A stretch of DNA of 39,067 nt from Deltaproteobacteria bacterium (lineage in GTDB: Bacteria; Desulfobacterota; Binatia; UTPRO1): positions 1 to 39,067 of the forward strand of contig JADLHM010000009.1 of NCBI GenBank assembly GCA_020848745.1, given 5' to 3'. This document shows positions 3-17,580 of this stretch, in pieces. The notes beneath the pieces were generated by a model that worked only from the letters and a program-made list of their open reading frames with translations, was not told where the DNA came from and made no database searches. The position numbers and the translations under genes are program-made. Each line of letters opens with the position of its first letter. The first letter of the stretch is position 1.

Positions 3-824
3 GCCGTCCCGGGGCCCGCGGTCATGATCAAGAAGCTGCACCTGCGCGCCGAGGACGAGGCCAATCTCGAGAACCACGTGATGCTCGAGGCCGGGAACGC
101 GATTCCCGAGAGCCTCGACAACGTCACCATCGACTACCAGATCGCCAACTACGCCGAGAACGGCGAGATCGAGGTCGTCCTCGTCGCCGTCAAGAAGGAC
201 ATCCTCAACAGCTTCACCGCGGTGATCCGCGACGCCGGGCTGAATCCGCAGATCGTCGACGTCGACTACTTCGCCCTCGAGAACATGTTCGAGCTCAACT
301 ACTCGATCGACGAGGGCCAGGTCGTCGGGCTCGTGAACATCGGGGCGCGCTACTGCTCGATCAACATCCTGCGCGGCGGCCGGTCGTCCTTCACGGGCGA
401 CATCCCGGTCGGCGGCGCCGAGTTCACCGACGTGCTCATGCGCAACCTCGGCGTGTCGGTGGCCGAAGCCGAGCTGCTGAAGACCGGCGGCGCCGTGCGC
501 GACTTCCAGCCCGACCAGGTGGAGGCGGCGCTCGCTCCGGGCGTGCAGTTCCTGGTCGAGGAGATCCACCGGGCGCTCAGCTTCTACTGGCGCTCCGACG
601 CGGAGGACCCGCTGGCGGCCGTCTACCTCTCGGGCGGCACGGCGCGTACCGAGGGCCTGACGCGCGTGCTCGGCGAGCGTCTCGAGACGCCGGTCGAGCT
701 CGTGAAGCCGCTCGAGCGGGTCACGCTCGCGGGCGGCGTCGACGCCGATTTCGTCCGGGACAACGCTTCGTCGTTGGCCGTTACCGTCGGGCTCGCGTCC
801 CGGCGTCCGGGAGACAAGTCGTGA
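3..824 (+). CDS. pilM: Type IV pilus assembly protein PilM, 5'-truncated by the window edge
   Basis: PilM is a cytoplasmic actin/FtsA-like ATPase-fold protein that binds the N-terminal tail of PilN and couples the pilus motor to the inner-membrane alignment complex. The frame is open from base 3, before the ATG at 24, and the codons ahead of that ATG read like PilM interior (AVPGPAVMIKKL). The gene therefore starts upstream, and about the first quarter of a usual ~350-residue protein is missing. Visible actin-fold features are VGLVNIGARYCSINI (the phosphate-2-like strand) and VYLSGGTARTEGL (the adenosine-motif region). The stop codon overlaps the pilN GTG by 4 bp (GTGA, 821-824), so translation is probably coupled. 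Identity is secure from sequence and from the intact pilMNOPQ order. Confidence 0.93.
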   Translation, partial: AVPGPAVMIKKLHLRAEDEANLENHVMLEAGNAIPESLDNVTIDYQIANYAENGEIEVVLVAVKKDILNSFTAVIRDAGLNPQIVDVDYFALENMFELNYSIDEGQVVGLVNIGARYCSINILRGGRSSFTGDIPVGGAEFTDVLMRNLGVSVAEAELLKTGGAVRDFQPDQVEAALAPGVQFLVEEIHRALSFYWRSDAEDPLAAVYLSGGTARTEGLTRVLGERLETPVELVKPLERVTLAGGVDADFVRDNASSLAVTVGLASRRPGDKS

Positions 825-1465
825 TTCGCGTCAACCTGTTGCCGGTCCGCGAGGTCGAGCGGGAGGCCGGTCGTCGGCAGGAGACCCGGCTCGTCTACCT
901 GAGCGCGGTCCTCGTGCTGGTCGTGCTCGCGGGCATCGAGGTCGCGACCCGCATGCGCCTGGCGCCCCTCAAGAAGGAGTACGCGAGGCTCCAGGCGGAC
1001 ATCGTCGCTCTCGACAAGAAGTCGGCGGAGCTCGCCAAGCTCGAGACCGAGCGCAATGACCTCGAGGAGAAGCTCAAGACCATCGCGACCCTCGAGGCCA
1101 AGAAGATCGGGCCGGTGAACGTGCTCGCGGATCTCAGCGACGCGGCGCCCGAGCAGGTGTGGCTCCTCGAGTTCAAGGAGAGCGGCGGGCTCGCGACGAT
1201 CAGCGGGCTCGGGCTCGACGACCAGACCATCGCCAACTTCATGCGCAACCTCGCCGGATCGCCCTATTTCGACAACGTCGATCTCGTCGAGACGGCGCAA
1301 TCCGAGCTCGACGGCGTGCAGCTGAAGCGCTTCGTCGTGAACGCGCGCCTCTCCTACTCCGGCAAGGCGCTCGGCGCGGCGCCGCGCAACCTCAAGTTTC
1401 CGGAGCCGACGAACAAGGGCGGGACCAAGCGCAAGCCGGGTCAGCGCAAGGGGAGCCGCGCATGA
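821..1465 (+). CDS. pilN: Type IV pilus inner-membrane protein PilN
   Basis: PilN is a bitopic inner-membrane protein. Its cytoplasmic N-terminal motif docks into PilM and its periplasmic domain pairs with PilO. The protein (214 aa, GTG start) begins MIRVNLLPVRE, the conserved INLLP-type PilM-binding motif. One membrane helix follows at about residues 27-43, then a coiled coil (about 48-90, rich in Lys/Glu/Leu) and a ferredoxin-like periplasmic domain. The last ~20 residues form a very basic tail (NKGGTKRKPGQRKGSRA) that I do not associate with typical PilN. The start overlaps pilM and the end overlaps pilO by ATGA (1462-1465). Confidence 0.93.
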   Translation: MIRVNLLPVREVEREAGRRQETRLVYLSAVLVLVVLAGIEVATRMRLAPLKKEYARLQADIVALDKKSAELAKLETERNDLEEKLKTIATLEAKKIGPVNVLADLSDAAPEQVWLLEFKESGGLATISGLGLDDQTIANFMRNLAGSPYFDNVDLVETAQSELDGVQLKRFVVNARLSYSGKALGAAPRNLKFPEPTNKGGTKRKPGQRKGSRA

Positions 1466-2094
1466 ACGACCTTCTCGACCGTTTCTTCGAGCTCGAAAAC
1501 CGCCAGCGTGTCATGGCGGTGGCCGGCGTCCTCGCGGTCGTCTTCGGGACCTACTGGTACTTCGTCTATGCGGGGCGTCGCGCCGAGACGGTCTCGGTGA
1601 CCGCCAAGATCAACGATCTGCGCCAGCAGCGCGACGCGAAGGAGAAGCTCGTCGCCAACATGGGCGAGCTCCAGGAGACCGTGCGGGAGCTCGGCGCGCA
1701 GCTGAAGCAGGCCGAGGCGCAGCTTCCGGACTCGAAGGAGATCCCCGACCTCCTGAGCAGCGTCTCGTCGGCGGGACGCGACGCGGGGCTCGAGGTCATC
1801 TCGTTCCGTCAGCGGCAGGAGGAGCTCAAGGACTTCTACGCCGAGGTGCCGGTCGACGTGACGGTGCGCGGCAACTATCACGAGGTCGCGGCCTTCTTCG
1901 ACCGCGTCGGCAAGCTCGACCGCATCGTGAACGTCGGCGACATCCTGATGCAGACGCCGCGGCGCGAAGGCGACGAGATGATCGTCGACACCGCCTGCTC
2001 GGCCACCACCTTCCGCTTCCTCGACGAGCGGGAACGCGCCGAGATCGCCAAGGAAAAAGCGGCTAAGGCCAAGGAATCCAAGAAGAAAAAGTAA
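1462..2094 (+). CDS. pilO: Type IV pilus inner-membrane protein PilO
   Basis: PilO is the PilN partner of the alignment complex and contacts PilP in the periplasm. I place the start at the ATG at 1462, giving 210 aa, because it overlaps the pilN stop by ATGA and produces the correct N-terminus MNDLLDRFFELENRQR. A longer open frame upstream is only a shadow of pilN. One membrane helix lies near residues 18-36. A coiled coil follows (about 45-95, DLRQQRDAKEKL onward), then the ferredoxin-like periplasmic domain with GNYHEVAAFFDRVGKLDRIV, which is typical of PilO. The C-terminus is a lysine-rich tail (EKAAKAKESKKKK). The gene abuts pilP with no gap. Confidence 0.93.
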   Translation: MNDLLDRFFELENRQRVMAVAGVLAVVFGTYWYFVYAGRRAETVSVTAKINDLRQQRDAKEKLVANMGELQETVRELGAQLKQAEAQLPDSKEIPDLLSSVSSAGRDAGLEVISFRQRQEELKDFYAEVPVDVTVRGNYHEVAAFFDRVGKLDRIVNVGDILMQTPRREGDEMIVDTACSATTFRFLDERERAEIAKEKAAKAKESKKKK

Positions 2095-2766
2095 ATGAGG
2101 TCGCTCATGCGAGGGAAACGGAACATCACGGTTGCGGCAGTGCTCGCCTCGGGGGTCGTGCTCGCCGTGCGTGTGCTTCCCGCGACCGCGGCGTCCGACG
2201 GGGGCGCGCTCGGCGGTCCGATGGCGGCGATCGCGAAAGCGCGTGCCGCCGCCGACAAGGCGGAGCAGCGGGCCGATCGTCACGACGCGGAAGCCGCGAA
2301 GACGGTCGACGACGCACCGCGTGGAAGACAGGCGGGGCAGAAGGCGGCCACCGTCCCTAGCGGTCAGGACGCGCAAGCGCCCCAAGAACAGGCGGGGGCG
2401 GCGTCGAGCGACGGGGCGCCGGCGCTTCCCACCTACGATGCGCGCGCCCATCGCGATCCGTTCACGCCGCCTCGCCTCAATTCGACGGCCGATGCCCGGA
2501 CGCCGCTCGAGACCTACCAGATCGGACAGCTGAAGCTCGTCGGCGTCGTCGCGCAGCCCCCGCAGGGCTATCGCGCGATGGTGGAAGATTCCGCCGGACT
2601 AGGCTACATCATCACCACCGGGACGCCCATCGGGTCGAGCGGCGGGGTGGTGCGCAGCATCGAATCCAGACGCGTAGTCATCGAGGAGAGCACTCGCGAC
2701 TTCTACGGCGACGTGAAGCCGAAAGAGGTCGTGATGGAGCTGCCTCAGGAGGATCGATCGCCATGA
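2095..2766 (+). CDS. pilP: Type IV pilus assembly protein PilP
   Basis: PilP is the periplasmic connector between the PilNO dimer and the N0 domain of the PilQ secretin. The protein is 223 aa. It has an N-terminal hydrophobic segment (about residues 10-30, ending PATAAS), a long low-complexity Ala/Lys/Gln linker, the PilP hallmark RDPFTPPRL near residue 120, and a beta-rich C-terminal domain (IGQLKLVGVVAQPPQGYRAM, then an EDSAGLGYIITTGTPIG segment). Many PilPs are lipoproteins, but no cysteine occurs near this signal segment, so anchoring would be by an uncleaved helix or absent. The start at 2095 follows the pilO stop directly; an in-frame ATG at 2107 is possible. The end overlaps pilQ by ATGA. 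Confidence 0.9.
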   Translation: MRSLMRGKRNITVAAVLASGVVLAVRVLPATAASDGGALGGPMAAIAKARAAADKAEQRADRHDAEAAKTVDDAPRGRQAGQKAATVPSGQDAQAPQEQAGAASSDGAPALPTYDARAHRDPFTPPRLNSTADARTPLETYQIGQLKLVGVVAQPPQGYRAMVEDSAGLGYIITTGTPIGSSGGVVRSIESRRVVIEESTRDFYGDVKPKEVVMELPQEDRSP

Positions 2767-5105
2767 GGATGCAGGAGCAGGGTTTGGGAGCGGCGGTGGT
2801 GAAGGTGGTTGGTGTCCTGCTCCTCGGCTTTCTGGGATGTACGCGGACGCTCGAACGACCGGCGTCGCATGGGCACGCGAAGTCGCAGATGCAACCTGCG
2901 ACGAGCGCGCAAGCCGCGCCGGTAGCGGCTCCGGCGGCCGCGCCGCAGGAGGCCGTCGTCGCGGCGCCGAGCGTGCCGCCGGCGAGCGCGCCGATCGAGA
3001 CGCCCGTCGAGGCGGAGCTCCGCGTTCACGAGATCCGGCTCGCCGAGCGCGAGTCGCGCGCGGCGCTCGTCGTTCGCTTCTCGCGGCCCGTCGATGCCGT
3101 CTCCCATTTCGCTTTGAGCTCGCCGAACCGCGTCGTCATCGACGTCGCGGGGCCCGTGCCGGACGTGGTCACGAACCGCGGCTACGTGGTGAGCGGTCAC
3201 GGCGTGGCGCGCGTACGCGTCGGCGCGCACGAGGGCAAGCTCCGCCTCGTGACGGACGTCGAGGGCCGCATCCCCTCGTACGAGGTCGCGGCGGACGGAC
3301 GGCAGGTGACCGTCCTGCTCGGCGAGACGGCCGAGCCGGTCGACGAGATCGTGTATCTCGCCCCGGGCATCGCGCCAGCGGTCGAGGAGCCGACCACGGC
3401 CGTCGCGGCGGCGCCCGCGGCCGAGCCGGCTCCGGCGGAACCCGCGGCGGCGCCTCCGCCGGTCGCGGCCCCCGAGGTCGCGCTCCCCGAGGTCGCGCCC
3501 CCGACCCAGCTTTCCGCGGAGCCCGAGCTCGCCCCCGAGCCGGCGCTCGCGGCGGCCGACACGACCATCGGCGAGGACGAGTCCGCGGTGCTCGCGGCGA
3601 ACAGCTCGCGCGGCGGCCGTAGCGGCCGCGCGAAGTCCAAGGCCGCCGTCGCCTCCATCCCGGGGGGCACGATCGAGGCGGCGCCGAACTCGCCGCGCGA
3701 GTACACCGGCCAGCGCATCTCCCTCGACTTCAAGGACGCCGACATCCAGAACGTGCTGCGCATCCTCGCCGACGTGAGCGGCCTCAACATCATCACGACC
3801 GACGACGTGCAGGGGAAGATCACCATGCGCCTCGTCGAGGTGCCGTGGGACCAGGCCCTCGACTCGATCTTGAAGGCGCGCGGCCTCGACATGGTGCGCG
3901 ACGGCAACATCATCCGGGTCTCGACCGTCGAGAAGCTCAAAGACGAGCGCGAGGCGCTGCGCGCGGCCAACGAGGCGCAGGCGCAGGCCGAGCCGCTCAA
4001 GGTCCGCTACATCCGCGTCAATTACGCCAAGGCGGACGAGAAGTTCGTCAAGAAGGTCCAGGACATCCTGACCGATCGCGGGGTCGCGACGTGGGACGAG
4101 CGCACCAACACGATCGTCGTGCGCGACATCGACAAGGGCATCGCCGACGCCGAGGAGATGATCTCCCACTTCGACACCCAGACGCCGCAGATTCTGATCG
4201 AGGCGAGCATCGTCGAGGCCACCGAGAACTTCGCCCGCGATCTCGGCATCCAGTGGGGGTACACGTATCGGGCCGGCCCCGAGGTCGGGAACTCCACCGG
4301 CCAGAATTTCCCCGGCCGCGTCAGCGCCGGCGGCAGCGGCCTCGGCACCGGCTCCGGGTCGGTCGCGCCCGGCCAGATCCCGGCCGGCCGGGTGCCGTTC
4401 CTCGCGGACTTTCCCGCGTCGAGTGTCGCTCCGGGCCTCGGCTCGGCCTTCGACGTGCTCCTCGGATCGCTCGACGGCTCGAAGTCGCTCGCCGCGCGCC
4501 TCACCGCGCTCGAGCGCGAGGGCAAGGGCAAGATCATCTCGCGGCCGCGCGTCGTGACCCTGAACAATCAGGCGGCCAACATCGAGAGTCTCGAGATCCT
4601 GCGCGTCAAGCTGCCGAGCACCGGCACCGTCATCAGCACCGGGGCGGGCGGCGTGGCGGGTGGATCCCAGGCGGCGACGGAGCAGATCAAGACCGGCATC
4701 ACGCTCACCGTGACGCCGCAGCTCTCCTCGGACGGTTTCGTCTTCCTCGACGTGTTCGCGAAATCGAGCGCGCTCCAGCCGCCGTCACAGTCGCAGGCGC
4801 CCTCGCCGGACGGCATTCCGAACGAGATCAGCCGCCAGGCGGAGTCGCACGTGCTCATCAAGGACGGCGAGACCTTCGTGCTCGGCGGCGTCTTCCGCAA
4901 CGTGCTGAACGATCAGGACAACGGCGTGCCGTACCTGCGGTCGATCCCGGTCCTCGGCTGGGCGTTCAAGAACACCGTGACCGCCGACAACCGCCAGGAG
5001 CTCCTGGTCTTCATCACACCACGATCGGTGCGTGCGCGCGGGACGGAGGACCTCGCGAGCCTCCCGTCGGCCGAAGATCTGTGGCAGAATCGCAGCAATC
5101 CCTGA
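2763..5105 (+). CDS. pilQ: Type IV pilus secretin PilQ
   Basis: PilQ forms the outer-membrane secretin ring through which the pilus passes. The protein is 780 aa. A signal segment ends in LLLGFLGC (Cys 26), which fits a permissive lipobox. A Pro/Ala-rich spacer precedes one AMIN domain (about 84-195; LRVHEIRLAERESRAALVV) that would bind peptidoglycan. A second Pro/Ala/Glu spacer follows (about 200-290). Then come an STN/N0 domain (about 319-385; ISLDFKDADIQNVLRILADV), an N1 domain (about 409-470) and the secretin core from about 473 (ILIEASIVEATENFARDLGI) to VPYLRSIPVLGWAFKNTVT and ELLVFITPRSV. Length and order match PilQ. A perfect 9-bp hairpin follows the stop. Confidence 0.95.
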   Translation: MRMQEQGLGAAVVKVVGVLLLGFLGCTRTLERPASHGHAKSQMQPATSAQAAPVAAPAAAPQEAVVAAPSVPPASAPIETPVEAELRVHEIRLAERESRAALVVRFSRPVDAVSHFALSSPNRVVIDVAGPVPDVVTNRGYVVSGHGVARVRVGAHEGKLRLVTDVEGRIPSYEVAADGRQVTVLLGETAEPVDEIVYLAPGIAPAVEEPTTAVAAAPAAEPAPAEPAAAPPPVAAPEVALPEVAPPTQLSAEPELAPEPALAAADTTIGEDESAVLAANSSRGGRSGRAKSKAAVASIPGGTIEAAPNSPREYTGQRISLDFKDADIQNVLRILADVSGLNIITTDDVQGKITMRLVEVPWDQALDSILKARGLDMVRDGNIIRVSTVEKLKDEREALRAANEAQAQAEPLKVRYIRVNYAKADEKFVKKVQDILTDRGVATWDERTNTIVVRDIDKGIADAEEMISHFDTQTPQILIEASIVEATENFARDLGIQWGYTYRAGPEVGNSTGQNFPGRVSAGGSGLGTGSGSVAPGQIPAGRVPFLADFPASSVAPGLGSAFDVLLGSLDGSKSLAARLTALEREGKGKIISRPRVVTLNNQAANIESLEILRVKLPSTGTVISTGAGGVAGGSQAATEQIKTGITLTVTPQLSSDGFVFLDVFAKSSALQPPSQSQAPSPDGIPNEISRQAESHVLIKDGETFVLGGVFRNVLNDQDNGVPYLRSIPVLGWAFKNTVTADNRQELLVFITPRSVRARGTEDLASLPSAEDLWQNRSNP

Positions 5106-6345: not shown

Positions 6346-6879
6346 ATGAAGGGGCGTGCGGTCGTGTTGATGGGGTTCATGGGGACGGGCAAGAGCGAGG
6401 TGGGCCGCCGATTGGCGCAGCGGCTCGGCCGTTCGTTCGTCGACACCGACCAATCGATCGAGGAGCGCGCGGGAAAGCGCATCGCGGCGATCTTCGCCGA
6501 CGAGGGCGAAGCCGCGTTCCGCCGCCTGGAGCGCGAGGCCGTGGCCGACGCGGTGGGGCGCGGCGGCGCCGTCATTGCGGTCGGTGGCGGAGCGGTGATC
6601 GACCCGGACAACGTGCGACGGCTCCGCGACGCCGGTGTGCTCGTCCATCTCACCGCGCGTCCCGAGATCATCCTGCGGCGGGTTGGCGCCGGGGTGAACC
6701 GGCCCCTCCTGCGGGGCGATCCGCGCACCGCGGTGACGCGCCTCCTCGCCGAGCGTGGTCCGGTCTACGCGGCGGCGGCGGACGTCACGATCGACACGTC
6801 GGAGCGAAGCGCGGAGCAGGTCGTCGAAGAGATCCAACAGGCGCTCGGGCGCTCAGAGCAATGGAAGTCGTCAACGTAG
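6346..6879 (+). CDS. aroK: Shikimate kinase
   Basis: AroK phosphorylates shikimate at O3 with ATP. The protein is 177 aa, the usual length for the family. The P-loop is GFMGTGKSEVG (about residues 9-19). The shikimate-binding Asp lies in DTDQSIEERAGK, and FRRLE supplies the substrate Arg. AVGGGAV is the glycine-rich substrate loop and NRPLLRGDPR is the LID with the ATP-contacting Arg. The ATG follows the aroC stop directly (TGAATG), and the 3' end overlaps aroB by 19 bp, so all three aro genes should be co-translated. Confidence 0.95.
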   Translation: MKGRAVVLMGFMGTGKSEVGRRLAQRLGRSFVDTDQSIEERAGKRIAAIFADEGEAAFRRLEREAVADAVGRGGAVIAVGGGAVIDPDNVRRLRDAGVLVHLTARPEIILRRVGAGVNRPLLRGDPRTAVTRLLAERGPVYAAAADVTIDTSERSAEQVVEEIQQALGRSEQWKSST

Positions 6880-7925
6880 AGCTTGGGGACCGCGCCTATC
6901 CGATCTATGTCGGTGCCGGTTGCCTTGGGGATTTGGGAACGCGTCTCGCGGAGACGGGGAAACGAGTGGCGGTGGTGACCAATTCGACGATCGCGAACCT
7001 CTATCTGGACGACGCAGTCGCGTCGCTGGTCCGCAGCGGCTTCGATCCCGCGGTCATCCAGATCCCGGACGGCGAGGAGCACAAGAACCTCGCCTGGCTC
7101 GCGTTCGTGTACGACCGGCTGATCGACGCGGGCGTCGACCGCGGCGGCGCGGCGATCGCGCTCGGAGGCGGGGTCGTCGGCGACCTCACGGGCTTCGCCG
7201 CGGCCACCTATCTGCGCGGCATCGATCTCGTGCAGGTGCCGACCACGCTGCTCGCCCAGATCGACTCCTCGATCGGCGGCAAGACCGGCATCAACCATCC
7301 GGCCGGCAAGAACCTGCTCGGCGCGTTCAAGCAGCCGCGATTCGTGCTCGCCGACGTCGAGTGCCTGCGGACGCTGCCGCGCCGCGAATACGTCGCCGGG
7401 CTCGCCGAGGCGATCAAGACCGGCGCGATCCTCGACGCCGAGCTCTTCGCGCTCCTGGAGGCGGAGCTTGCGGGCATCCTGCGGCAGGAGCGCGACCTGC
7501 TGGTGCGGGTGGTGCGACGCTGTTGCCAGTTGAAGGCGCTCGTCGTCGTGGCGGACGAGACCGAGAGCGGGTATCGGGCCATCCTCAACTTCGGCCACAC
7601 GATCGGCCACGCGATCGAGAGCCTCACCGACTACACGACGTATCTGCACGGGGAGGCCGTCGCGATCGGCATGGTCGCGGCCGCGCGCGTTTCGCAGCGG
7701 CTCGGACACTGCGGCGAGGCGACCGTGCGCCGGCTCACGACGCTCGTGGACCGCTGTGGGCTCCCGACCGAGGTGCCGAGCGACCTCGGCCGCGACGCGC
7801 TCGCCCTCGCCATGCGCACCGACAAGAAGGCGCTTGGAGGGACCATCAAGTTCGTCTGTCTCGAAGGAATCGGCACGACCAGATTCGAGCGGCTCGGCTG
7901 TGAAGACATCGTTCGTTACGTCTGA
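6861..7925 (+). CDS. aroB: 3-Dehydroquinate synthase
   Basis: AroB converts DAHP to 3-dehydroquinate, the second shikimate-pathway step, using NAD+ and a divalent metal. The protein is 354 aa, typical of the family. Diagnostic segments are PDGEEHKNL, GGGVVGDLTGFAAATYLRG (NAD-binding glycines), PTTLLAQIDSSIGGKTG, INHPAGKNLLGAF, NFGHTIGHAIE and HGEAVAIGM, the last two carrying metal-ligand histidines. No expected motif is missing. It begins inside the aroK 3' end and is the last gene of the aro cluster. Confidence 0.96.
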   Translation: MEVVNVELGDRAYPIYVGAGCLGDLGTRLAETGKRVAVVTNSTIANLYLDDAVASLVRSGFDPAVIQIPDGEEHKNLAWLAFVYDRLIDAGVDRGGAAIALGGGVVGDLTGFAAATYLRGIDLVQVPTTLLAQIDSSIGGKTGINHPAGKNLLGAFKQPRFVLADVECLRTLPRREYVAGLAEAIKTGAILDAELFALLEAELAGILRQERDLLVRVVRRCCQLKALVVVADETESGYRAILNFGHTIGHAIESLTDYTTYLHGEAVAIGMVAAARVSQRLGHCGEATVRRLTTLVDRCGLPTEVPSDLGRDALALAMRTDKKALGGTIKFVCLEGIGTTRFERLGCEDIVRYV

Positions 7926-7954
7926 AGAACTCACGTGAAGGGGAGGGTGCGGGT

Positions 7955-8581
7955 ATGAGAGGATCGCGGATGGTCATGGCGGCGGCGTGCTTCGCGTTGG
8001 CCGCGTGCGGCGGGGGCGGCGGCGGCGGATCGAACGACAACGGGGTCTCGCTGCGTTTCTCGGGCGTCTTTCAGGAGACGCGGGAGCAGGTCGCGCCGGC
8101 GGCCGATCAGTTTCCGACGCCGGACGAGGCGGTCGGCGACACGGGGTCGTTCGTCATTCTCGGCGAGGACCTGACGGTCCCGCGCGACTACAACAACGAC
8201 GGCGACCTCGACGGTGGCTTCCTCGGCGTGTCGAACAATATGGACCAGTCCGTGAACCTCACGAAGGTCACGGTCGAGATCTACATCGCGGGGGCCAAGC
8301 TCGCGAACCCGGTGGTGACCGACTCGGTTCCGCTGTCCACGTCGCTGCCGCCCGCGAGCATCGACGAGCAGGGCACGCGCACGCCGTCGCAGAGCTTCGC
8401 GCAGACGGTGTTCGTGCGTCCCGACGTGATGGCGTTCCTAGCGGCCAACCAGAACCTGCTGCCGACGCCGCCGTTCGACATGACCGTCGTGATGACGATC
8501 ACCGGGATCAGCGACACCGGCGACAGCTTCGACACCAACGAGGTCAGTTACGCGGTCGCCGTCCTGGCGCCGTCGCTGTGA
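7955..8581 (+). CDS. Predicted secreted lipoprotein of unknown function
   Basis: I do not recognise a family for this 208-aa protein. The N-terminus MRGSRMVMAAACFALAACG is a lipoprotein signal with lipobox LAAC (Cys 18), followed by a run of seven glycines as a flexible tether. The mature part is Thr/Val/Asp-rich, looks beta-sandwich-like, and contains DYNNDGDLDGG, a short Asp/Asn loop that could bind calcium. A strong purine-rich ribosome site (GAAGGGGAGGG, about 7937-7947) precedes the ATG. It lies 23 bp before a second lipoprotein gene on the same strand, so the pair is probably co-expressed and exported together. The conclusion 'envelope lipoprotein' is solid; function is unknown. Confidence 0.75.
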   Translation: MRGSRMVMAAACFALAACGGGGGGGSNDNGVSLRFSGVFQETREQVAPAADQFPTPDEAVGDTGSFVILGEDLTVPRDYNNDGDLDGGFLGVSNNMDQSVNLTKVTVEIYIAGAKLANPVVTDSVPLSTSLPPASIDEQGTRTPSQSFAQTVFVRPDVMAFLAANQNLLPTPPFDMTVVMTITGISDTGDSFDTNEVSYAVAVLAPSL

Positions 8582-8604
8582 CGGGGAGAGAGGGGAGGAT
8601 GACG

Positions 8605-10233
8605 ATGCGCGCACGCAAGTGGGTGATGGGAAGCGTCGCGGTGCTGGCGCTCGCGACCGTGGTCGTGAGTTGCGGCGGCACCGGCGGCGGTAGCGGCAGC
8701 AAGGGCGACACCGGAAACCAGTTCATCTTGAACAGCAACAACTCCGGACGCCTCAACCTGAACGTGAGCCCGGCCGAGGTCGACGCCAACAAGTCCGACC
8801 GCATCGGCTTGATCGCGACCCTGAGCGACAGCTTCGGCAGGGGCATCCAGGGCGTGGTGATCACGTTCGGCTCGGACATCGACGACATCACGTTCCTTCC
8901 CGCCGACGGTGTGGCGGTGACGGACGCGCTCGGTCGCGCCGACATCATCGCCGTGGCCGGGTCGACGCCGACCGGCACCGGCGCCATCGTCGGCACCGGC
9001 GCCATCTTCGCGCAGACGCCGAGCGGCTTCGGCCTGCGCGCGCAGGTGCCGATCACGCTCTACGACGTCGGGTTCATCGACGCGGAGGTTCTCGGTGTCA
9101 TCCCGTCGGCGCTGAGCGTCGTCGAGCCGGCGCCGGGGCAGGTGCTGTTCTTCAACATCGTCGGCGGCACGCCGCCGTACCAGCTGAAGAACGAGGTGAG
9201 CGGCATCGGCGCGGCCGTCATCTCGCAGCACTGCCTCCCGGGATGCACGGAGAACGGCGGGGTGCTCTGTGTCGGCAGCCCCTGTCAGTCGGATTCCGAC
9301 TGCAACGTCAACGCATCGCCCACACCTGCGGGAGTGTGCGCCGGTCCGATCAAACGCTGCCTCGCGAGCTGCGCCGGCACCAACTGCGCTGGGTCGCGTT
9401 GCGGCACCGACGCCGACTGCAACGACGGCTCCTCCACGCCGGCGAACGTCTGCAAGGACTCGGGCCAGTCCATCGCCTACATCATCGCGGCCGATCCTGC
9501 GGCCGGTACGCACGGCTTCGTCGTCGAGGACTCGGCGGCGGGCGCCGTGAACGTCGAGGTCACCGTGAGCTTCGTTTGCGGCAACGGCGTGGCGAGCGGC
9601 GACGAGCAATGCGACCTCGGCGATCTCCGCGAGCAGACGTGCGAGAGCCTCGGCCAGGGCACGGGCATTCTTTCGTGTGGTACCGACTGCACGTTCGACT
9701 TCACGAACTGCACCTTCGCGACGCCGACGCCGGGCGGCGGAGGTGGCGGCGCGACCGCGACCCCGGGTGGGCCGACCGCGACGTCGGCGACCGGCACGCC
9801 GACGCCGACCCCGACGGTCACGCCCGCCAACACACCGACGCCAGGCGTGGGCGTGCCGTCGAACCTGGCGCTCGCGCTCCTCACCAACGGCTCGGGGGAC
9901 AACGGCAACGGTACCCTCACGACGGTGATCGCGGCGACGGTGACCGACACGAACGGCAACCCGGTTCCCGACGGCTCGAACGTGTTCTTCAACATCTCGG
10001 GCGCGACGCAAGGAGCGATCGTCAACAGCCCGTCGGCGACGAACGCCAACCCGCCATGCGACGTCACGAACTTCGAGACCGATACGGGGGTCGCGGTTCT
10101 GAACCAGTCCGGCGTCGCGCACACCTGTGTCACCTACCCGTCGACGTCGGCGGGCACGCAGATCACCCTGAATGCGAACTCGGGCGCGGCGTCCGATTCG
10201 CAGACCTTCAACCTGCCGCCGCCGCCTCCGTAA
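8605..10233 (+). CDS. Lipoprotein with Ig-like domains and Cys-rich repeats
   Basis: The protein is about 542 aa from the ATG at 8605. I prefer this start because GGGAGG (8593-8598) then has 6-nt spacing; the ATG at 8599 would have none. The signal ends VVVSC, a lipobox-type Cys. A Big_1-like Ig domain follows (about 35-155; LIATLSDSFGRGIQGVVITF). Next are two short Cys-rich repeats sharing GSPCQSDSDCN / GSRCGTDADCN, and a CGNGVASGDEQCD segment resembling myxobacterial disulfide-rich repeats. A Thr-Pro/Gly linker (about 374-415) leads to a second Ig-like domain (IAATVTDTNGNPVPDGSNVF) ending in a poly-Pro tail. It is likely a surface or adhesive protein; the ligand is unknown. Confidence 0.8.
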   Translation: MRARKWVMGSVAVLALATVVVSCGGTGGGSGSKGDTGNQFILNSNNSGRLNLNVSPAEVDANKSDRIGLIATLSDSFGRGIQGVVITFGSDIDDITFLPADGVAVTDALGRADIIAVAGSTPTGTGAIVGTGAIFAQTPSGFGLRAQVPITLYDVGFIDAEVLGVIPSALSVVEPAPGQVLFFNIVGGTPPYQLKNEVSGIGAAVISQHCLPGCTENGGVLCVGSPCQSDSDCNVNASPTPAGVCAGPIKRCLASCAGTNCAGSRCGTDADCNDGSSTPANVCKDSGQSIAYIIAADPAAGTHGFVVEDSAAGAVNVEVTVSFVCGNGVASGDEQCDLGDLREQTCESLGQGTGILSCGTDCTFDFTNCTFATPTPGGGGGGATATPGGPTATSATGTPTPTPTVTPANTPTPGVGVPSNLALALLTNGSGDNGNGTLTTVIAATVTDTNGNPVPDGSNVFFNISGATQGAIVNSPSATNANPPCDVTNFETDTGVAVLNQSGVAHTCVTYPSTSAGTQITLNANSGAASDSQTFNLPPPPP

Positions 10234-10257
10234 GCGGCGGCAGTCGTTCGAGTCGAG

Positions 10258-10297
10258 CGGGGAGCGGCGCCACGGCGTCGCTCCCCGTTTCGTTTTC
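10258..10297 (+). terminator. Intrinsic terminator after the lipoprotein pair
   Basis: A perfect 9-bp stem (CGGGGAGCG at 10258-10266 with CGCTCCCCG at 10279-10287) can extend inward by a few pairs and is followed directly by TTTCGTTTTC. This is the best-looking rho-independent terminator in the window and closes the two-lipoprotein unit 24 bp after the stop. Confidence 0.8.
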
Positions 10298-10380
10298 AGG
10301 CGGTCGGGAGCCCCGGCAGGTGGTCGACGCAGAGCCGCACGAGCGCCTTCAAACGCCGCCGGCCGGGTGCCGTTCCCGAA
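10296..10380 (-). repeat. Copy A of a diverged direct repeat, a coding remnant on the minus strand
   Basis: This segment aligns by hand with 11348-11431 at roughly 80% identity with one single-base indel. Read on the minus strand, and allowing that indel, it encodes about 27 residues containing NGTRPAALKALVRLC and ends at a stop equivalent to the stop of copy B. It is therefore the frameshifted 3' end of a small gene whose body is absent. I do not recognise the family. The two copies bracket the decayed accessory genes. Confidence 0.6.
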
Positions 10381-11706: not shown

Positions 11707-14184
11707 TCAGAGCACCGTCGAGGGCACGCACAACTCGCGCGGTCCGAACACCGTGAACGTGTCGGGACCGAACTGATTGAGCGAATACAGCGTGTCGTGC
11801 GTCGGCATGCCGGCGGCGCTGCGGATCTGGTAGCAGACGAGGTGGGTGTTCGGGTCGAGGATACCTTCGCCGTTCTTGTCGACCGGGGCGCAGTAGCGGA
11901 CCGGCCGCTTGATGGCGCCGTCGATCGAGCCGAACTGGTCGGTGACCGTGATCGAGTCGGCGCGGAAGTAGCCGCGCGCCTTGTAGCACTTGAAGTGGTC
12001 GATCGCCGGCGTGTAGCTGGCGATCGGGCCGCTGTGGCTCTTCGCGCTCGGGACGAGCAGCGCGTCCGGTCGCACCAGGTCGAGCGCGACCGCGCCGAAC
12101 TGATTGGTCACGATGAAGCCTCGGACGGGCGTGAAGCGCGGCGTCGTCTGCTTGATCGTGTAGGCCGCCAGGTGGTCGGGATCGAGCGGCGCCGTCGGAT
12201 CCTCGCCGTTCTTGTCGGCCGGCGCGCAGAAGCGCTTGCCGCGGAGCACGCGCACGGTGCTCGCGCCGAAATGGTCGACGAGCGAGACCCCGCTCAAGCG
12301 GAGCGGCGGCCGGTGCGTTTCGTAGCACTGGAAGTGGTCGAGGTCGCCCGGCGTCGGCGTCGGTCCCGGCACCGTGGCGGTCGGCGGGGGCGGCGTCTCG
12401 GTCGGGTCCGCAGTGCTCGTCGCGGTCGGCGTGGACATGCCGGTGGGTGTCGCCGTCGGGGTCGGCGTCGGTGTTCCGGTGGACGTCGTGGTCGCGGTCG
12501 GAGAGGCGCTCGCGGTCGGCGTCGGCGTCCCGGTGGATGTTGCGGTCGCGGTCGGAGAGGCGCTCGCGGTCGGCGTCGGCGTCCCGGTGGATGTTGCGGT
12601 CGCGGTCGGGGAGGCGCTCGCGGTCGGCGTCGGCGTTCCGGTGGACGTCGTGGTCGCGGTCGGAGAGGCGCTCGCGGTCGGCGTCGGCGTCCCGGTGGAT
12701 GTTGCGGTCGCGGTCGGAGAGGCGCTCGCGGTCGGCGTCGGTGTTCCGGTGGACGTCGCGGTCGCGGTCGGAGAGGCGCTCGCGGTCGGCGTCGGCGTCC
12801 CGGTGGACGTCGTGGTCGCGGTCGCCGTCGGGGTCACGACCGGCGATCCCGTCGTCGTCGGGGTTGCCGTCGGCGCGGCGAGCGGCTCGCACGGCGTGGT
12901 GTCCGAAGGCACGGTCAGGAAGGGGTCCGTGTCGACGTTGACCGACGCCGTGTCGCAGCCGGCGGTGTTGGCGCCGGTCGCGCATCCCCACCAGTTGTTC
13001 TCGGCGTCGATCGTCTCGCCCCCGGCGTAGGCGGCGCCGGCGAGGTTGCCGTAGAGGTTGTTGTCGCTGGCGACGTTCGTCGCGATCGTGCCGGCGGCCT
13101 GTCCGTCGCTGTAGAAGATGCCCGTTCCCGCGAGCGCCGCCGCGCACGTCCCACCGCCGAGGCAGTCGCCGTCGGTCGTGCACGGCTCGCCGTCGTTCGT
13201 GCCGCCGCCGCATGCGAGGCCGAGGCCGTTCGTCGAGAAGCAGTTGCTGGTGATCGCGACGTTCTGCGCGCCGACCGCCGGGTCGGCGTCGCCGAAGCTC
13301 GTGAGCAGGAGGCCGTAGCGGCCGTTCCCCGAGAAGGTGTTGCCGTCGACCGAGGAGTTCTGCATGCCGCCCTGGAGACCGTCGAGGAGGTTGTCCGCGA
13401 AGGTGTTGCGCGCGATCGCCATCTGGTCCGCCGCGGCCGCGCCGAAGCTCACGCCGACGCGGTTGCTCTCGAAGCGGTTGTCGGCCATCTCGGGCGTCCC
13501 CGCATCGACGTTGGGGCCGACGTTCTGCGTGCCTTCGGCCAAGAAGCCGTAGGTACGGACGCCGTTCCGAACGCAATTGTCCAGGAAGGCGAGACCGTCG
13601 AAGTCGTTGGCCCCGTCGAGGTGGAAGAGCGCGTTCGGGCCGGTCGCGCTCGCGCCGTCGATCTCGTTCTGCTCGAACCGCGTGCTGCTGGCGTCGGCGC
13701 CGAAGAACGCGCCGCTGTCCGTGAAGCCGACGATCCGGTTCGAGAAGAACTTGAGGCGGCTGAGGGGGCCGCCGACGACGTCGATGCCGCGCGTGCCGCC
13801 TTGAAATGTGAACCCGTCGACGGTCGCGCTCGACGCCCCCAGCGTCAGCGTCAACCCGACGCCGCCCGCGGGCGCGACGACGGTCTCCGTGTCGAGGCGG
13901 TCGCATGCCGGCACGCCGCTCTGGGCGCCGCGCAGGATCACGTTCTTCCCGAGCGTCAGGTTCTCGACGTACGTACCGGCGGCGACGACGATGACGTCGC
14001 TGCTCACGGCGACGCCGATCGCGAACTGGATCGTGCAGCACGGCGTTCCCGTACACGGCGCCGTATCACTGCACGCGACGCTGTTGTCGACGTTGCGCGT
14101 GACCGCGCCCGCCACGCTCGGCGCGAACGCTACACTCGCGATCCACGCCGCCGCCCAAAGCCTCCGCCCGATCGCTCCCGTCAT
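11707..14184 (-). CDS. Secreted beta-helix surface protein with Thr-Pro repeat stalk and C-terminal DQFG repeats
   Basis: The protein is 825 aa with a signal peptide (about 1-27, ending SVAGA). Residues ~30-415 form a right-handed parallel beta-helix of pectate-lyase/NosD type. Visible signs are AAGTYVENLTLGKNVILRG, then serial asparagine-turn units such as DNRFESNRVGVSF, IARNTFADNLLDG and SVDGNTFSGNGRYG. A Ser/Thr/Pro/Ala stalk (about 430-590) contains an 18-residue unit repeated seven times. The C-terminal ~200 residues carry four related units built around HFKCY / DQFG / LCxPxxKNG / HLxCY, resembling a domain found in surface proteins of deltaproteobacteria-like genomes. It is probably a cell-surface or glycan-associated protein; catalytic residues were not identified. 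It is transcribed alone. Confidence 0.85.
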   Translation of the reverse strand: MTGAIGRRLWAAAWIASVAFAPSVAGAVTRNVDNSVACSDTAPCTGTPCCTIQFAIGVAVSSDVIVVAAGTYVENLTLGKNVILRGAQSGVPACDRLDTETVVAPAGGVGLTLTLGASSATVDGFTFQGGTRGIDVVGGPLSRLKFFSNRIVGFTDSGAFFGADASSTRFEQNEIDGASATGPNALFHLDGANDFDGLAFLDNCVRNGVRTYGFLAEGTQNVGPNVDAGTPEMADNRFESNRVGVSFGAAAADQMAIARNTFADNLLDGLQGGMQNSSVDGNTFSGNGRYGLLLTSFGDADPAVGAQNVAITSNCFSTNGLGLACGGGTNDGEPCTTDGDCLGGGTCAAALAGTGIFYSDGQAAGTIATNVASDNNLYGNLAGAAYAGGETIDAENNWWGCATGANTAGCDTASVNVDTDPFLTVPSDTTPCEPLAAPTATPTTTGSPVVTPTATATTTSTGTPTPTASASPTATATSTGTPTPTASASPTATATSTGTPTPTASASPTATTTSTGTPTPTASASPTATATSTGTPTPTASASPTATATSTGTPTPTASASPTATTTSTGTPTPTPTATPTGMSTPTATSTADPTETPPPPTATVPGPTPTPGDLDHFQCYETHRPPLRLSGVSLVDHFGASTVRVLRGKRFCAPADKNGEDPTAPLDPDHLAAYTIKQTTPRFTPVRGFIVTNQFGAVALDLVRPDALLVPSAKSHSGPIASYTPAIDHFKCYKARGYFRADSITVTDQFGSIDGAIKRPVRYCAPVDKNGEGILDPNTHLVCYQIRSAAGMPTHDTLYSLNQFGPDTFTVFGPRELCVPSTVL
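12461..12838 (-). repeat. 54-bp tandem repeat, seven copies, coding for the Thr-Pro stalk
   Basis: Units begin at 12461, 12515, 12569, 12623, 12677, 12731 and 12785. The spacing is exactly 54 bp and differences between units are only a few bases (for example GGTGTTCCG versus GGCGTCCCG). Each unit encodes STGTPTPTASASPTATAT or a close variant. The last unit in reading order diverges into PTPTATPTG. Because the unit is a multiple of three, copy-number change would alter stalk length without breaking the frame. Confidence 0.9.
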
Positions 14185-14299
14185 CCTCCACCTCGCTCGC
14201 GCGGCCCGCCGCGCGCGTCCGCTGCTGCCCGAGAGCTAGGACGCCCGCGTTCCGTGGTCAACCGGAAGTCGCCATGCGAGGTCGCACGGCGCGCGGTGG

Positions 14300-15985
14300 T
14301 CACGACGCCGCGAAGCGACGACGTCGGAAGAGCGCGAGCCCGACCGCCAGGTACGCGAGGCCGTGCGCGATCAGCACGCCGGTCGGCAGGAGGGCGGCGT
14401 CGAGCGGCTGGCGGCGGATCATGAGATCGTTGTAGGCGGCCATCGCCCAGGTCGTCGGGAACGCCAGCGCCACGCGCTGCATCCACGGCGGCTCGAGATC
14501 GATCGGCCACCAGCAGCCCCCGACCGCCGCCATCGTCACGATGACGATCGAGCCGAGCGGCAGCACGGCTTCGCGTGAGCGGACGAGCCCCGCGACGACG
14601 AGTCCGAAGGCGGTGGCGGCGAAGACGATTCCGGCGGTCGGGAGCGCGAGCGCCCAGGGCTCGGGTCCGAGCGAGATGCCGAAGCAAAGCCGCCCGACGA
14701 TCAGCAGGAGCGTCATCTGGGCGCAGCCGACGGCGAAGCGTGTCACGAGCTTCGCGAGCAACGTGACGTCGAGCGCCACCGGCATCGTGCGCAGGCGCGC
14801 GAGCGTCCCCCAGTCGCGCTCGTCGAGAAGGCCGAGCGACACGCCGAGCAGCATGCCGAGGAGGAGGAACGTCACGCTGAATCCGGGGACGTTCTGGTCG
14901 AAGGTGTTCAGGCGCTCGGGCGCGCCGGTCACGCTCCGCTCGGCGATCTCGATGGCGCCGGGGAGCGCGATGGCCGGCGGCTCGGGCAAGCTCGGGACGC
15001 GGAACGCCGGCAGCGTGGGCAGGGCCGGGGGCATCACGGAGGGCACGCTGACGTCGGGAAGCGGCAGCGGGGTCCTGCCGACGAGGCGCTCGGCGAGCGC
15101 GTCGGGGTCCATGCGGACGAGTTCGCTCACCGCGAACGGGACGCGGGGGCGCGCCGGCGGAGGCGGCAACCGGTCGGCGTAGCGTCCGGCGTTGCGATGG
15201 ACGGTGCGCCACCAGCGCGTGAACGCGGCCTCCGCTGCCTCGAGCTCGGCGACGAACCGCCGGAGCGGTCCGAGCTCGGCGGCGAGGCGGGCGCTCGCGA
15301 GGCTCGCTTGCAGCTCGGTCGCCTCGGCGACCGCCGCCCGCAGCTCTCGCGCCGCATCCGCTTCGAGCGCGTGCGCCTGCGCCGTGGTCGCCGCGCGCGC
15401 CGCCGCGAGCCGTCCCGGCAGCGCCTCGAGTTCGCGCGCCAGCGACTCCGCCGAACGCGCGAAATCGACGCGGGTATGCTCCATGCGGGCGCGCAGGCGC
15501 GCCAGCCGGCGGCCGGCGCGGTCGCGCGCGCGCCGCTCGATGGCGTGGCGGATCTCCTGCACGAGCGCCCGCACGTTCGCGATCTCGAGGTACTTCACGG
15601 GATCGGTCAGCAGCTCGACGTCGACGGGACGCCCCGCCGCGAGAGCGCGCGAGGCGCCGCGCGGGATCACGAGCGCCACGCCTGCCCGCCGGCGTTCGAC
15701 GAGCGCGGCGGCGTCGACGCGGCTGCCGACCGCCTCGACCGCGACGGCTTCGTGGCGGCCGAGGGCGTCGCGGAAGGCACGGCCCACGCGCCCGCCGTCC
15801 TCGTCGGCGACCGGCAGCAGGTAGGCGGTCGTGCCGCGCGGGCCGGCGCCGTAGAGGCTCGCGAGCGAAAATCCGGCGACGGTGATGACGACGATCGGCG
15901 CGATCGTGAGGAACACGAGGCCCACGCGATCGCGCGCGAGCAAACGGAAGTCCTTGCCGATCGCGGCCGCGAGCGCGCGCATCAT
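14300..15985 (-). CDS. ABC-2 type exporter permease
   Basis: The protein is 561 aa and forms the membrane partner of the ATPase encoded just upstream. One N-terminal membrane helix (about 18-40; VFLTIAPIVVITVAGFSLA) is followed by a ~330-residue extracytoplasmic region. This region contains an Ala/Arg/Glu-rich coiled coil (about 140-245) and a Pro-rich stretch. A cluster of about five to six C-terminal helices follows (from about 368; SVTFLLLGMLLGVSLGLLDE, TLLLIVGRLCFGISLG, GIVFAATAFGLVVAGL and others). This is the ABC2_membrane_3/YhgE-like architecture of drug or lipid exporters. The start overlaps the ATPase stop by ATGA (15982-15985). Substrate is unknown. Confidence 0.85.
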   Translation of the reverse strand: MMRALAAAIGKDFRLLARDRVGLVFLTIAPIVVITVAGFSLASLYGAGPRGTTAYLLPVADEDGGRVGRAFRDALGRHEAVAVEAVGSRVDAAALVERRRAGVALVIPRGASRALAAGRPVDVELLTDPVKYLEIANVRALVQEIRHAIERRARDRAGRRLARLRARMEHTRVDFARSAESLARELEALPGRLAAARAATTAQAHALEADAARELRAAVAEATELQASLASARLAAELGPLRRFVAELEAAEAAFTRWWRTVHRNAGRYADRLPPPPARPRVPFAVSELVRMDPDALAERLVGRTPLPLPDVSVPSVMPPALPTLPAFRVPSLPEPPAIALPGAIEIAERSVTGAPERLNTFDQNVPGFSVTFLLLGMLLGVSLGLLDERDWGTLARLRTMPVALDVTLLAKLVTRFAVGCAQMTLLLIVGRLCFGISLGPEPWALALPTAGIVFAATAFGLVVAGLVRSREAVLPLGSIVIVTMAAVGGCWWPIDLEPPWMQRVALAFPTTWAMAAYNDLMIRRQPLDAALLPTGVLIAHGLAYLAVGLALFRRRRFAAS

Positions 15986-16935
15986 GGAACGCGCCCGTCG
16001 TCGTCGCCGTCACGCAGCGCGTGCCCGGTCAGCTTGAAGAAGGCGTCGGCGAGCGTCGGCCGGTCGAAGCGCAGCTCGACGACCTCGCCCCCGGCCCGTG
16101 CGGCGCGGGCGAGGAGCACGGGAAGCGCCGTGGGGTCGTCGAGCGCGAGCGTCGTCCGCGTGCCGTTCGCCGCGAGCACGCGGACGCTGCCGAGACCGTC
16201 CAGCCAATCCGGCGCCGGCGGCCGGAGCGTCCGGAGCGAAAGGCTCGCCGCGATGCCGCTCGCGCCGACCAGGTCGGCCGTCACGCCGCTCGCGACGATC
16301 CGGCCTTCGTCGAGCATCACCGTCCGCGTGCAGGCGCGCTCCGCTTCCTCCATGTCGTGGGTGCTCACGAGGACGGCGGTACCGTCCGCGGCGAGGGCGG
16401 CGATCGCCCCGTGCAGGCGCTCGCGCGAGCGCATGTCGATGCCCGCGGTCGGCTCGTCGAGGAGGAGCACGCGCGGTGCGTGCAGGATGCCGCACGCGAG
16501 GTTCAGGCGCCGTCGCAGGCCGCCCGAGTAGGTCGCCACCGCATCGTCGGCGCGCGCGGCGAGCCCGACGCTATCGAGGGTGCGGCCGATCGCGGCGGTG
16601 GCGGCGCGCGCGTCGAGCCCGAGCATACGGCCGAAGAAGCGCAGGTTCTCGCGTCCCGTGAGCGTCGGGTAGAGCGCCGGATCCTGCGGCACATAGCCGA
16701 GGACGCGGCGCGCCGCGCGCGCCGCGCGCGGCAGCGCGTGCCCGGCGACGACGACGGTGCCCTCGTCGGGGGCGAGCAGCGTCGCGAGGATCGCGAGCGC
16801 CGTCGACTTCCCGGCGCCGTTCGGTCCGAGCAATCCGACGACCTCGCCGGCCTGCACTTCGAGGTCGATGTCGGCGAGCACCGTGCGCTCGCCGTATCGC
16901 TTGCGCAGATCCGCGACGACGATCGCCGATTGCAT
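15982..16935 (-). CDS. ABC transporter ATP-binding protein of an ABC-2 exporter
   Basis: The ATPase is 317 aa from the ATG at 16935. Longer frames exist, with another ATG at 16944 giving three more residues, but family proteins begin near IVVADLRKRYGERTVL. Motifs are Walker A GLLGPNGAGKST, Q-loop YVPQDPALYPTLTGRENL, signature YSGGLRRRLNLACG, Walker B RVLLLDEPTAGID and switch STHDMEEAE. The ~90-residue C-terminal extension matches DrrA/CcmA-type exporters. It forms a two-gene unit with the downstream permease. The promoter must lie in the 117-bp gap shared with divergent aroQ. Confidence 0.93.
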   Translation of the reverse strand: MQSAIVVADLRKRYGERTVLADIDLEVQAGEVVGLLGPNGAGKSTALAILATLLAPDEGTVVVAGHALPRAARAARRVLGYVPQDPALYPTLTGRENLRFFGRMLGLDARAATAAIGRTLDSVGLAARADDAVATYSGGLRRRLNLACGILHAPRVLLLDEPTAGIDMRSRERLHGAIAALAADGTAVLVSTHDMEEAERACTRTVMLDEGRIVASGVTADLVGASGIAASLSLRTLRPPAPDWLDGLGSVRVLAANGTRTTLALDDPTALPVLLARAARAGGEVVELRFDRPTLADAFFKLTGHALRDGDDDGRVP

Positions 16936-16992
16936 GCGACCCATCTTTGCATATTGGCGTGCTATACGCGCGGCATAACTTGACCGGCTCAT

Positions 16993-17002
16993 GTCTATAG
17001 AC
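16993..17002. promoter_or_regulatory. Short palindrome in the divergent ABC transporter/aroQ gap
   Basis: GTCTATAGAC is a perfect 10-bp palindrome and is followed by a half-repeat TTAGAC. A possible aroQ-direction promoter has TTGACC (16980-16985) and TAGACT (17004-17009) with 18-bp spacing, which would place the palindrome between the two boxes. This is a plausible operator, but short and unproven. Confidence 0.3.
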
Positions 17003-17052
17003 TTAGACTTGCGCCCGCGTGAGGACGCGAGGGTGAACGCGAGGTCGCAGGC

Positions 17053-17580
17053 GTGAGCGCGAGGTCGCTGGAAGAGGGGCGTGCGCGCGGCAAGACCGTG
17101 CTCGTGCTGCACGGTCCGAACTTGAATCTCCTCGGCCGCCGTGAGCCCGACGTGTACGGAGCGCTCACGTTGCAGGAGGTTGACGACCGCCTGCGCGCGT
17201 TGGCGACCGAGCTCGGCGTGCGCGTCGAGATCGTGCAGTCCAACGCCGAGGGCGAGCTAGTCGACCGCATCCAGGCGGCCGCCGGCGGCGCGTCGGCGAT
17301 CGTCATCAACCCCGCCGCCTATACGCACACGAGCATCGCCATCCGCGACGCGATCCTCGCCGTCGGGTTGCCGGTCGTCGAGGTGCATCTCTCGAACATC
17401 CACGCCCGCGAGGAATTTCGGCATCGGTCGCTCGTCAGCGACGTCGCCGTCGGACAGATCTCGGGCTTCGGTGTCGACAGCTACCTTCTCGGGCTGCGCG
17501 CCGCCGTGCACGTCATAGCCGACGGGCGGCGCCGCTCGCTGAAGACGCGACGACCCCAGAAGGCGCGTCGGCCGGCGTGA
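17053..17580 (+). CDS. aroQ: 3-Dehydroquinate dehydratase, type II
   Basis: AroQ dehydrates 3-dehydroquinate to 3-dehydroshikimate, supplying the step between AroB and the later enzymes encoded at 5182-7925. The protein is 175 aa from a GTG. Core motifs are [19 protein letters not shown] (carrying the catalytic Tyr), [28 protein letters not shown], and [17 protein letters not shown] with its catalytic His and substrate-binding residues. The first ~14 residues and the basic C-tail ([16 protein letters not shown]) exceed the usual ~145-150 residues. The 3' end overlaps the accB-like gene by GTGA, the aroQ-accB-accC order common in bacteria. Confidence 0.94.

Follow-up and report, generated by a model that had tools for sequence, protein, structure and literature searches.

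The protein encoded on the minus strand at 11707-14184 of the window (the whole stretch of 39,067 nucleotides analysed here) is a new member of a catalogued, uncharacterised family, on whose architecture the analysis yields new evidence. Its C-terminal repeats belong to Pfam DUF7450 (PF24247), annotated as a 'repeat of unknown function'. Directly readable from sequence are the anatomy of the protein, the covariation of two cysteines within the repeat unit, the prevalence of even unit numbers, the wide range of fusion partners and the fact that the array is not tied to one position. We propose, at about even chances, that DUF7450 would be an exported, disulfide-stapled retention or binding module that attaches to the envelope of its own producer. 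No mention of DUF7450 or PF24247 was found in the open-licence literature searched, and the original prediction, that the repeat has no described function, still holds: the family is catalogued yet functionally undescribed, and is neither a characterised enzyme nor a characterised anchoring domain.

The gene and its surroundings

The open reading frame (ORF) of 825 aa starts with ATG, and its coordinates are exact. It is overlapped by an antisense ORF at 11797-14424 on the plus strand (875 aa, GTG start); the minus frame was taken as coding because it carries Pfam domains and because the frame is kept by a syntenic ortholog in isolate SJ588. The SJ588 locus shows a DNA identity to the window of 86% over 11707-17283 and of 89% over 6348-10320. 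The features of the gene are as follows.

11707..14184, minus strand: whole gene, 825 aa, ATG start; Pfam domains; syntenic ortholog in SJ588
14107..14184, minus strand: putative signal-like start, roughly aa 1-26, with Arg-Arg, a hydrophobic stretch and Ala-Gly-Ala; seen by eye and flagged by a crude heuristic
12889..14106, minus strand: beta-helix head, aa 27-432; best stretch of Pfam Beta_helix 199-397, outer borders by eye
12346..12888, minus strand: Thr/Pro/Ser/Ala-rich stalk, aa 433-613, from the sequence, borders by eye
12456..12824, minus strand: 54-bp (18-aa) tandem array within the stalk, 6.8 copies, 92% matches
12208..12342, minus strand: DUF7450 unit 1, type A, aa 615-659, Cys620/Cys653, by unit profile
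12037..12180, minus strand: DUF7450 unit 2, type B, aa 669-716, no Cys pair (Ala674/Leu710 by our own count), by unit profile
11872..12003, minus strand: DUF7450 unit 3, type A', aa 728-771, Cys733/Cys765, by unit profile
11716..11847, minus strand: DUF7450 unit 4, type B', aa 780-823, Cys784/Cys819, by unit profile

Export of the protein is plausible from its signal-like N-terminus. The beta-helix that had been predicted for the head was borne out by Pfam Beta_helix (PF13229; E 7.5e-10, 39.1 bits against a cut-off of 25.9), and NosD (PF05048) was passed narrowly (25.6 bits, cut-off 23.6), which likens the stretch 199-397 to the right-handed beta-helix proteins, including NosD-like ones. The NosD family proper differs: as a NosD copper-site maturation protein (NCBIfam TIGR04247) the window protein reached only 20.2 bits against a cut-off of 300, and as a LIC10774/LIC10365 surface protein (NCBIfam NF047854) it reached 13.2 bits against 380; both assignments were rejected. 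A comparison of the beta-helix region with PDB sequences yielded no relatives at E<=0.01.

The stalk had been called expandable, which is in keeping with the 54-bp tandem array that codes for part of it. It is the least conserved part of the mature protein in the comparison with SJ588 (114 of 180 aligned residues identical, 29 gap columns), whereas 358 of 406 residues of the beta-helix and 183 of 212 of the repeat domain are identical; the stalk thus changes faster, in sequence and in length, than the parts that it joins. The stretch G000:C10:7498-8400, which matches the stalk and the first part of the repeat domain and has three TGA stops inside, may be the remnant of a disrupted copy or reflect an error in the frame.

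Elsewhere in the window, type IV pilus assembly genes lie in a row at 24-5105 on the plus strand, namely PilM (24-821), PilO (1159-2091) and PilP (2095-2763), followed by a secretin with an AMIN domain (2763-5102, plus strand). A further neighbour, at about 8600-10230 on the plus strand, encodes a protein with a lipobox-like start (VVVSCGG), Cys-rich stretches, a Thr/Pro stretch of its own, a weak match to Big_1 (29.8 bits, below the cut-off of 34.9) and a Cys/Asp motif that, by eye, resembles one in the beta-helix protein.

Repeat units, cysteine pair and predicted fold

DUF7450 matches the window protein in two stretches with 87.2 bits, against a gathering cut-off of 27; the best stretch is 671-821 (E 1.2e-24). 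The Pfam model has 151 positions, or about three units, in contrast to the repeat of about 47 residues, mostly in even numbers, that was found here with a single-unit profile. This profile was seeded with the four units of the window protein and iterated on relatives; it has 47 columns and, having been trained mostly on Cys-bearing units, may favour columns that hold Cys. It places the four units at 632-676, 686-733, 745-788 and 797-840 of the 842-residue stop-to-stop frame (17 is subtracted to obtain the numbering of the 825-aa protein). Four Cys-containing repeats with HFKCY and DQFG motifs had been predicted. The number is correct, but unit 2 has no cysteine, so that three of the four carry Cys, and both motifs occur as written in unit 3; the units start with HFQCY, HLAAY, HFKCY and HLVCY, and the second motifs are DHFG, NQFG, DQFG and NQFG (units 1 to 4).

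For a wider view, 92 ORFs with 347 units were sampled from matches in the window's own genome, from chosen regions of relatives and from best-match loci; they represent part of the matches of the class and include related copies. Arrays of four units were the most frequent (72), followed by two (13), three (5), eight (2) and one (2). Six ORFs with odd-numbered arrays were read by eye. In most of these, the profile seems to have missed a unit that is diverged or interrupted, and the start of one, at L093 14939, may be truncated. At L102, a stretch of about 250 aa (ORF residues about 300-548) seems to split unit 4, in which HLTCY starts at 297 and the last motif at 571; by eye, this insert seems beta-propeller-like and lies between strand 1 and strand 2. 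When the units of the 72 four-unit arrays were compared without the Cys columns, mean identity was highest between units 1 and 3 (0.383) and between units 2 and 4 (0.354), compared with 0.255-0.320 for the other pairs, which points to a duplicated pair, A-B-A'-B'. The Cys pair was present in unit 1 of 60, unit 2 of 8, unit 3 of 72 and unit 4 of 70 of these arrays; it was absent from unit 2 in 63 of the 72, the window's included, and from unit 1 in nine.

The two cysteines, Cys6 (in HxxCY) and Cys41 (in LCxP), occurred together in 257 of the 347 units and were both missing from 78; a single one was found in 1 unit, and 11 were gapped. After thinning at 60% identity (228 representatives), 169 had both, 50 neither and 1 a single cysteine, the rest being gapped. 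With a phi of 0.99, this was the highest value among the column pairs compared, the next being 0.71. A tree of the 334 distinct units was calculated with both Cys columns masked; it is a weak tree, based on 47 columns, on which the two Cys columns changed 21 and 20 times and their joint state 21 times, against 65-78 times with shuffled labels, so that the changes appear repeated and nearly always simultaneous. The commonest replacements combine a small and a large residue (Gly/Leu 15, Ala/Leu 10 and Ser/Met 8 of 78).

Because the pair is kept or lost together, a disulfide is predicted within the unit rather than between chains, and the sequences speak strongly for one such bond in every unit that bears the cysteines. 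Only 20 cysteines lie outside complete unit pairs in 70 four-unit ORFs, and the number of cysteines was even in 64 of the 70 four-unit spans; the remaining six, with odd numbers, speak against this part of the proposal. The suggestion that the repeats are disulfide-linked is supported by the covariation for bonds within each unit, and not for bonds between chains. Bonds from unit to unit are disfavoured, as a bond from Cys41 to the next Cys6 would leave unpaired cysteines in the common C-CC pattern (53 arrays). A His-Cys-Cys metal site was rejected because the His of HxxCY stays where both cysteines are gone (75 of the 76 Cys-less units with a residue at that position). The window's genome encodes one member of the disulfide-forming VKOR family and two GspD secretins over the cut-off, which make disulfide formation and type II secretion plausible routes; neither is tied to the window protein. 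A DNA scan of the same genome for a Gly-Glu-Pro-Cys motif gave 48 matches, fewer than the control (67).

Structure prediction of the repeats, proposed as a check along with the original prediction, gave a confident all-beta model without a convincing match in the PDB. AlphaFold2 modelled aa 614-825 from a 4-row alignment with a pLDDT of 87.0 and a pTM of 0.86 (12 strands, three residues helical); two of the five models were confident (87.0 and 86.3) and the other three were not (29.5-30.5). A separate two-unit model reached a pLDDT of 85.2 and a pTM of 0.73, again with two of five models confident. In this prediction each unit would consist of three strands, with HxxCY in strand 1, [D/N]QFG at the tight turn that links strand 2 to strand 3, and LCxP later in strand 3. 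The best hits of the four-unit model had an E of 0.11 in a Foldseek search of the PDB (none at E<=0.001), a Z of 3.8 over 104 aligned residues (rmsd 4.7) with VIA, and an E of 0.058 in a viral structure library; those of the two-unit model had an E of 0.38 (Foldseek) and a Z of 2.3 (VIA). A 22-row DUF7450 profile found no PDB sequence at E<=1. Judged from the models, the fold may be new, and a missing match proves nothing in this respect.

Partners, position and distribution

A survey of the proteins that carry the repeats, another of the checks proposed, was run on the sampled ORFs and revealed many different partners and a variable position. Pfam was scanned with 69 of 71 eligible ORFs. DUF7450 was found at E<=0.001 in 66 of these, the window's included, and 45 families were found over the 69 ORFs, none of which except DUF7450 occurred in more than five. 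Among the families listed are SdrD_B, DUF11, NHL, PPC, EGF-like, Big_2, Exo_endo_phos and a subtilase. Nine members from the window's own genome, scanned singly, agree with this; their partners include SdrD_B, DUF11, PPC and Big_2. Beta_helix matched only two of the 69 ORFs, one of them the window's; the second we take to be the SJ588 ortholog. Among the ORFs sampled, the combination of a beta-helix with DUF7450 was therefore seen only in the window protein and a close relative. Only 30 of the 92 ORFs have a PT-rich stretch at a distance of up to 60 aa from the array, so the stalk is not a general partner of DUF7450. A signal-like start was present in 76 of the 92 by a crude heuristic, the ORF starts being heuristic too.

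The position of the array was determined in 71 uncut ORFs of at least 200 aa, after setting aside 15 ORFs cut by the end of the locus and 6 shorter ones. It was C-terminal in 36, ending no more than 20 residues from the C-terminus; another 18 ORFs have it close to the N-terminus and 17 in an internal position. Four stand-alone frames of two units (149-160 aa) were also found. The original prediction had offered the repeats as a possible C-terminal anchor; relatives in which the domain sits near the N-terminus, in the interior or on its own do not accord with a strict C-terminal signal. No widely shared neighbour gene was found: the largest cluster covered 7 of 60 loci, and genomic context thus names no partner. 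At least two DUF7450 ORFs lie within one locus at L090, L125, L114, L121, L123 and L043.

In the window's own genome, DUF7450 was matched 23 times at E<=0.01, and the unit profile finds units in 17 ORFs, some weakly. The class is represented by 148 genomes. DUF7450 was detected at E<=0.001 in 45 of them, the window's own among these; a matching genome gave from 1 to 25 matches, and one protein may account for several. The curated cut-off was passed in 42 of the 148. Of 297 genomes drawn from the phylum, 6 match; these include the window's own and one genome that does not belong to the class. A record titled Candidatus Troglogloeales encodes a relative with 35% identity. None of 14 control genomes matches, and tblastn at E<=0.001 gave no match in plasmids and phages. 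In viral contigs, 36 stretches matched a pattern, none of which is a relative.

Possible roles of the module

According to the reading that we prefer, the gene would give rise to an exported extracellular protein with a parallel beta-helix head on a length-variable Thr/Pro-rich stalk, ending in a compact all-beta DUF7450 module of four units of about 47 residues, A-B-A'-B'. In units 1, 3 and 4, strands 1 and 3 would be joined by a disulfide, in place of which unit 2 has the small-plus-large pair Ala/Leu. Many different heads are fused to the module in the lineage, and it would provide them with a common means of extracellular retention or binding; its partner would probably be one common ligand, e.g., a cell-surface glycan or other envelope component. 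The many different partners, together with the 17 ORFs of the own genome, suggest one shared job outside the cell. Several observations weigh against this reading: the stand-alone copies have no head to hold, which binding fits better than retention; a signal-like start and, even more so, a PT-rich stretch near the array are not found in all ORFs; and the confident AlphaFold2 models are two of five, from an alignment of four rows. In its widest form, in which an undescribed all-beta fold from duplicated A-B pairs, with a disulfide in most units, would be a general-purpose extracellular module that holds many proteins per genome on one ligand in this class, the proposal is tentative.

An outward-facing adhesion or glycan-binding (lectin-like) module, which would tether exported proteins to external substrates and not to the producer's own envelope, is a possible alternative, although we consider it doubtful. 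It would account for the fusions with a subtilase, Exo_endo_phos and the adhesin-like SdrD_B and Big_2, and for stand-alone two-unit copies with signal-like starts. However, no obvious glycosidase is among the 25 partner families listed, of 45, the window protein has no lectin or carbohydrate-binding module (CBM) family of Pfam at E<=1, the DUF7450 profile has no PDB sequence match, and the Foldseek rows for two CBM families are not significant (best E 0.38 and 1.4). A role that needs no ligand, as a passive structural spacer or a protease-resistant cap whose disulfides would only stabilise it outside the cell, is unlikely. The most conserved positions of the unit do look structural (Y7, 95%; P43, 93%; F27, 86%; also L40 and the Cys pair) and the fusion partners are mutually unrelated, but the loss of the Cys pair at one fixed place, unit 2, is more specific than a spacer seems to need, and KNGEG, a loop between units, is well conserved in the 22-row alignment.

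A solved structure might reveal a new fold, and the covariation of the Cys pair already gives DUF7450 a testable biochemical design. The ligand of the putative retention or binding module, once found, would give many unannotated proteins of an uncultured lineage a common role.

Among known systems, the sorting domains of the T9SS-CTD and MYXO-CTERM types are known only from the extreme C-terminus of their proteins. A tag of this kind for a secretion or anchoring machinery, which the C-terminal array of the window protein and of 36 of the 71 uncut ORFs might recall, is very improbable for DUF7450, as the domain is found at either end, inside and alone, and as the window protein has, by eye, no C-terminal transmembrane-plus-basic tail. 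SLH, LysM and carbohydrate-binding modules are shared non-catalytic modules of exported proteins. DUF7450 differs from them in that the window protein has no such Pfam family and no significant fold match; it resembles them in being one module with many extracellular partners, to which modules of these kinds are sometimes joined via Thr/Pro linkers.
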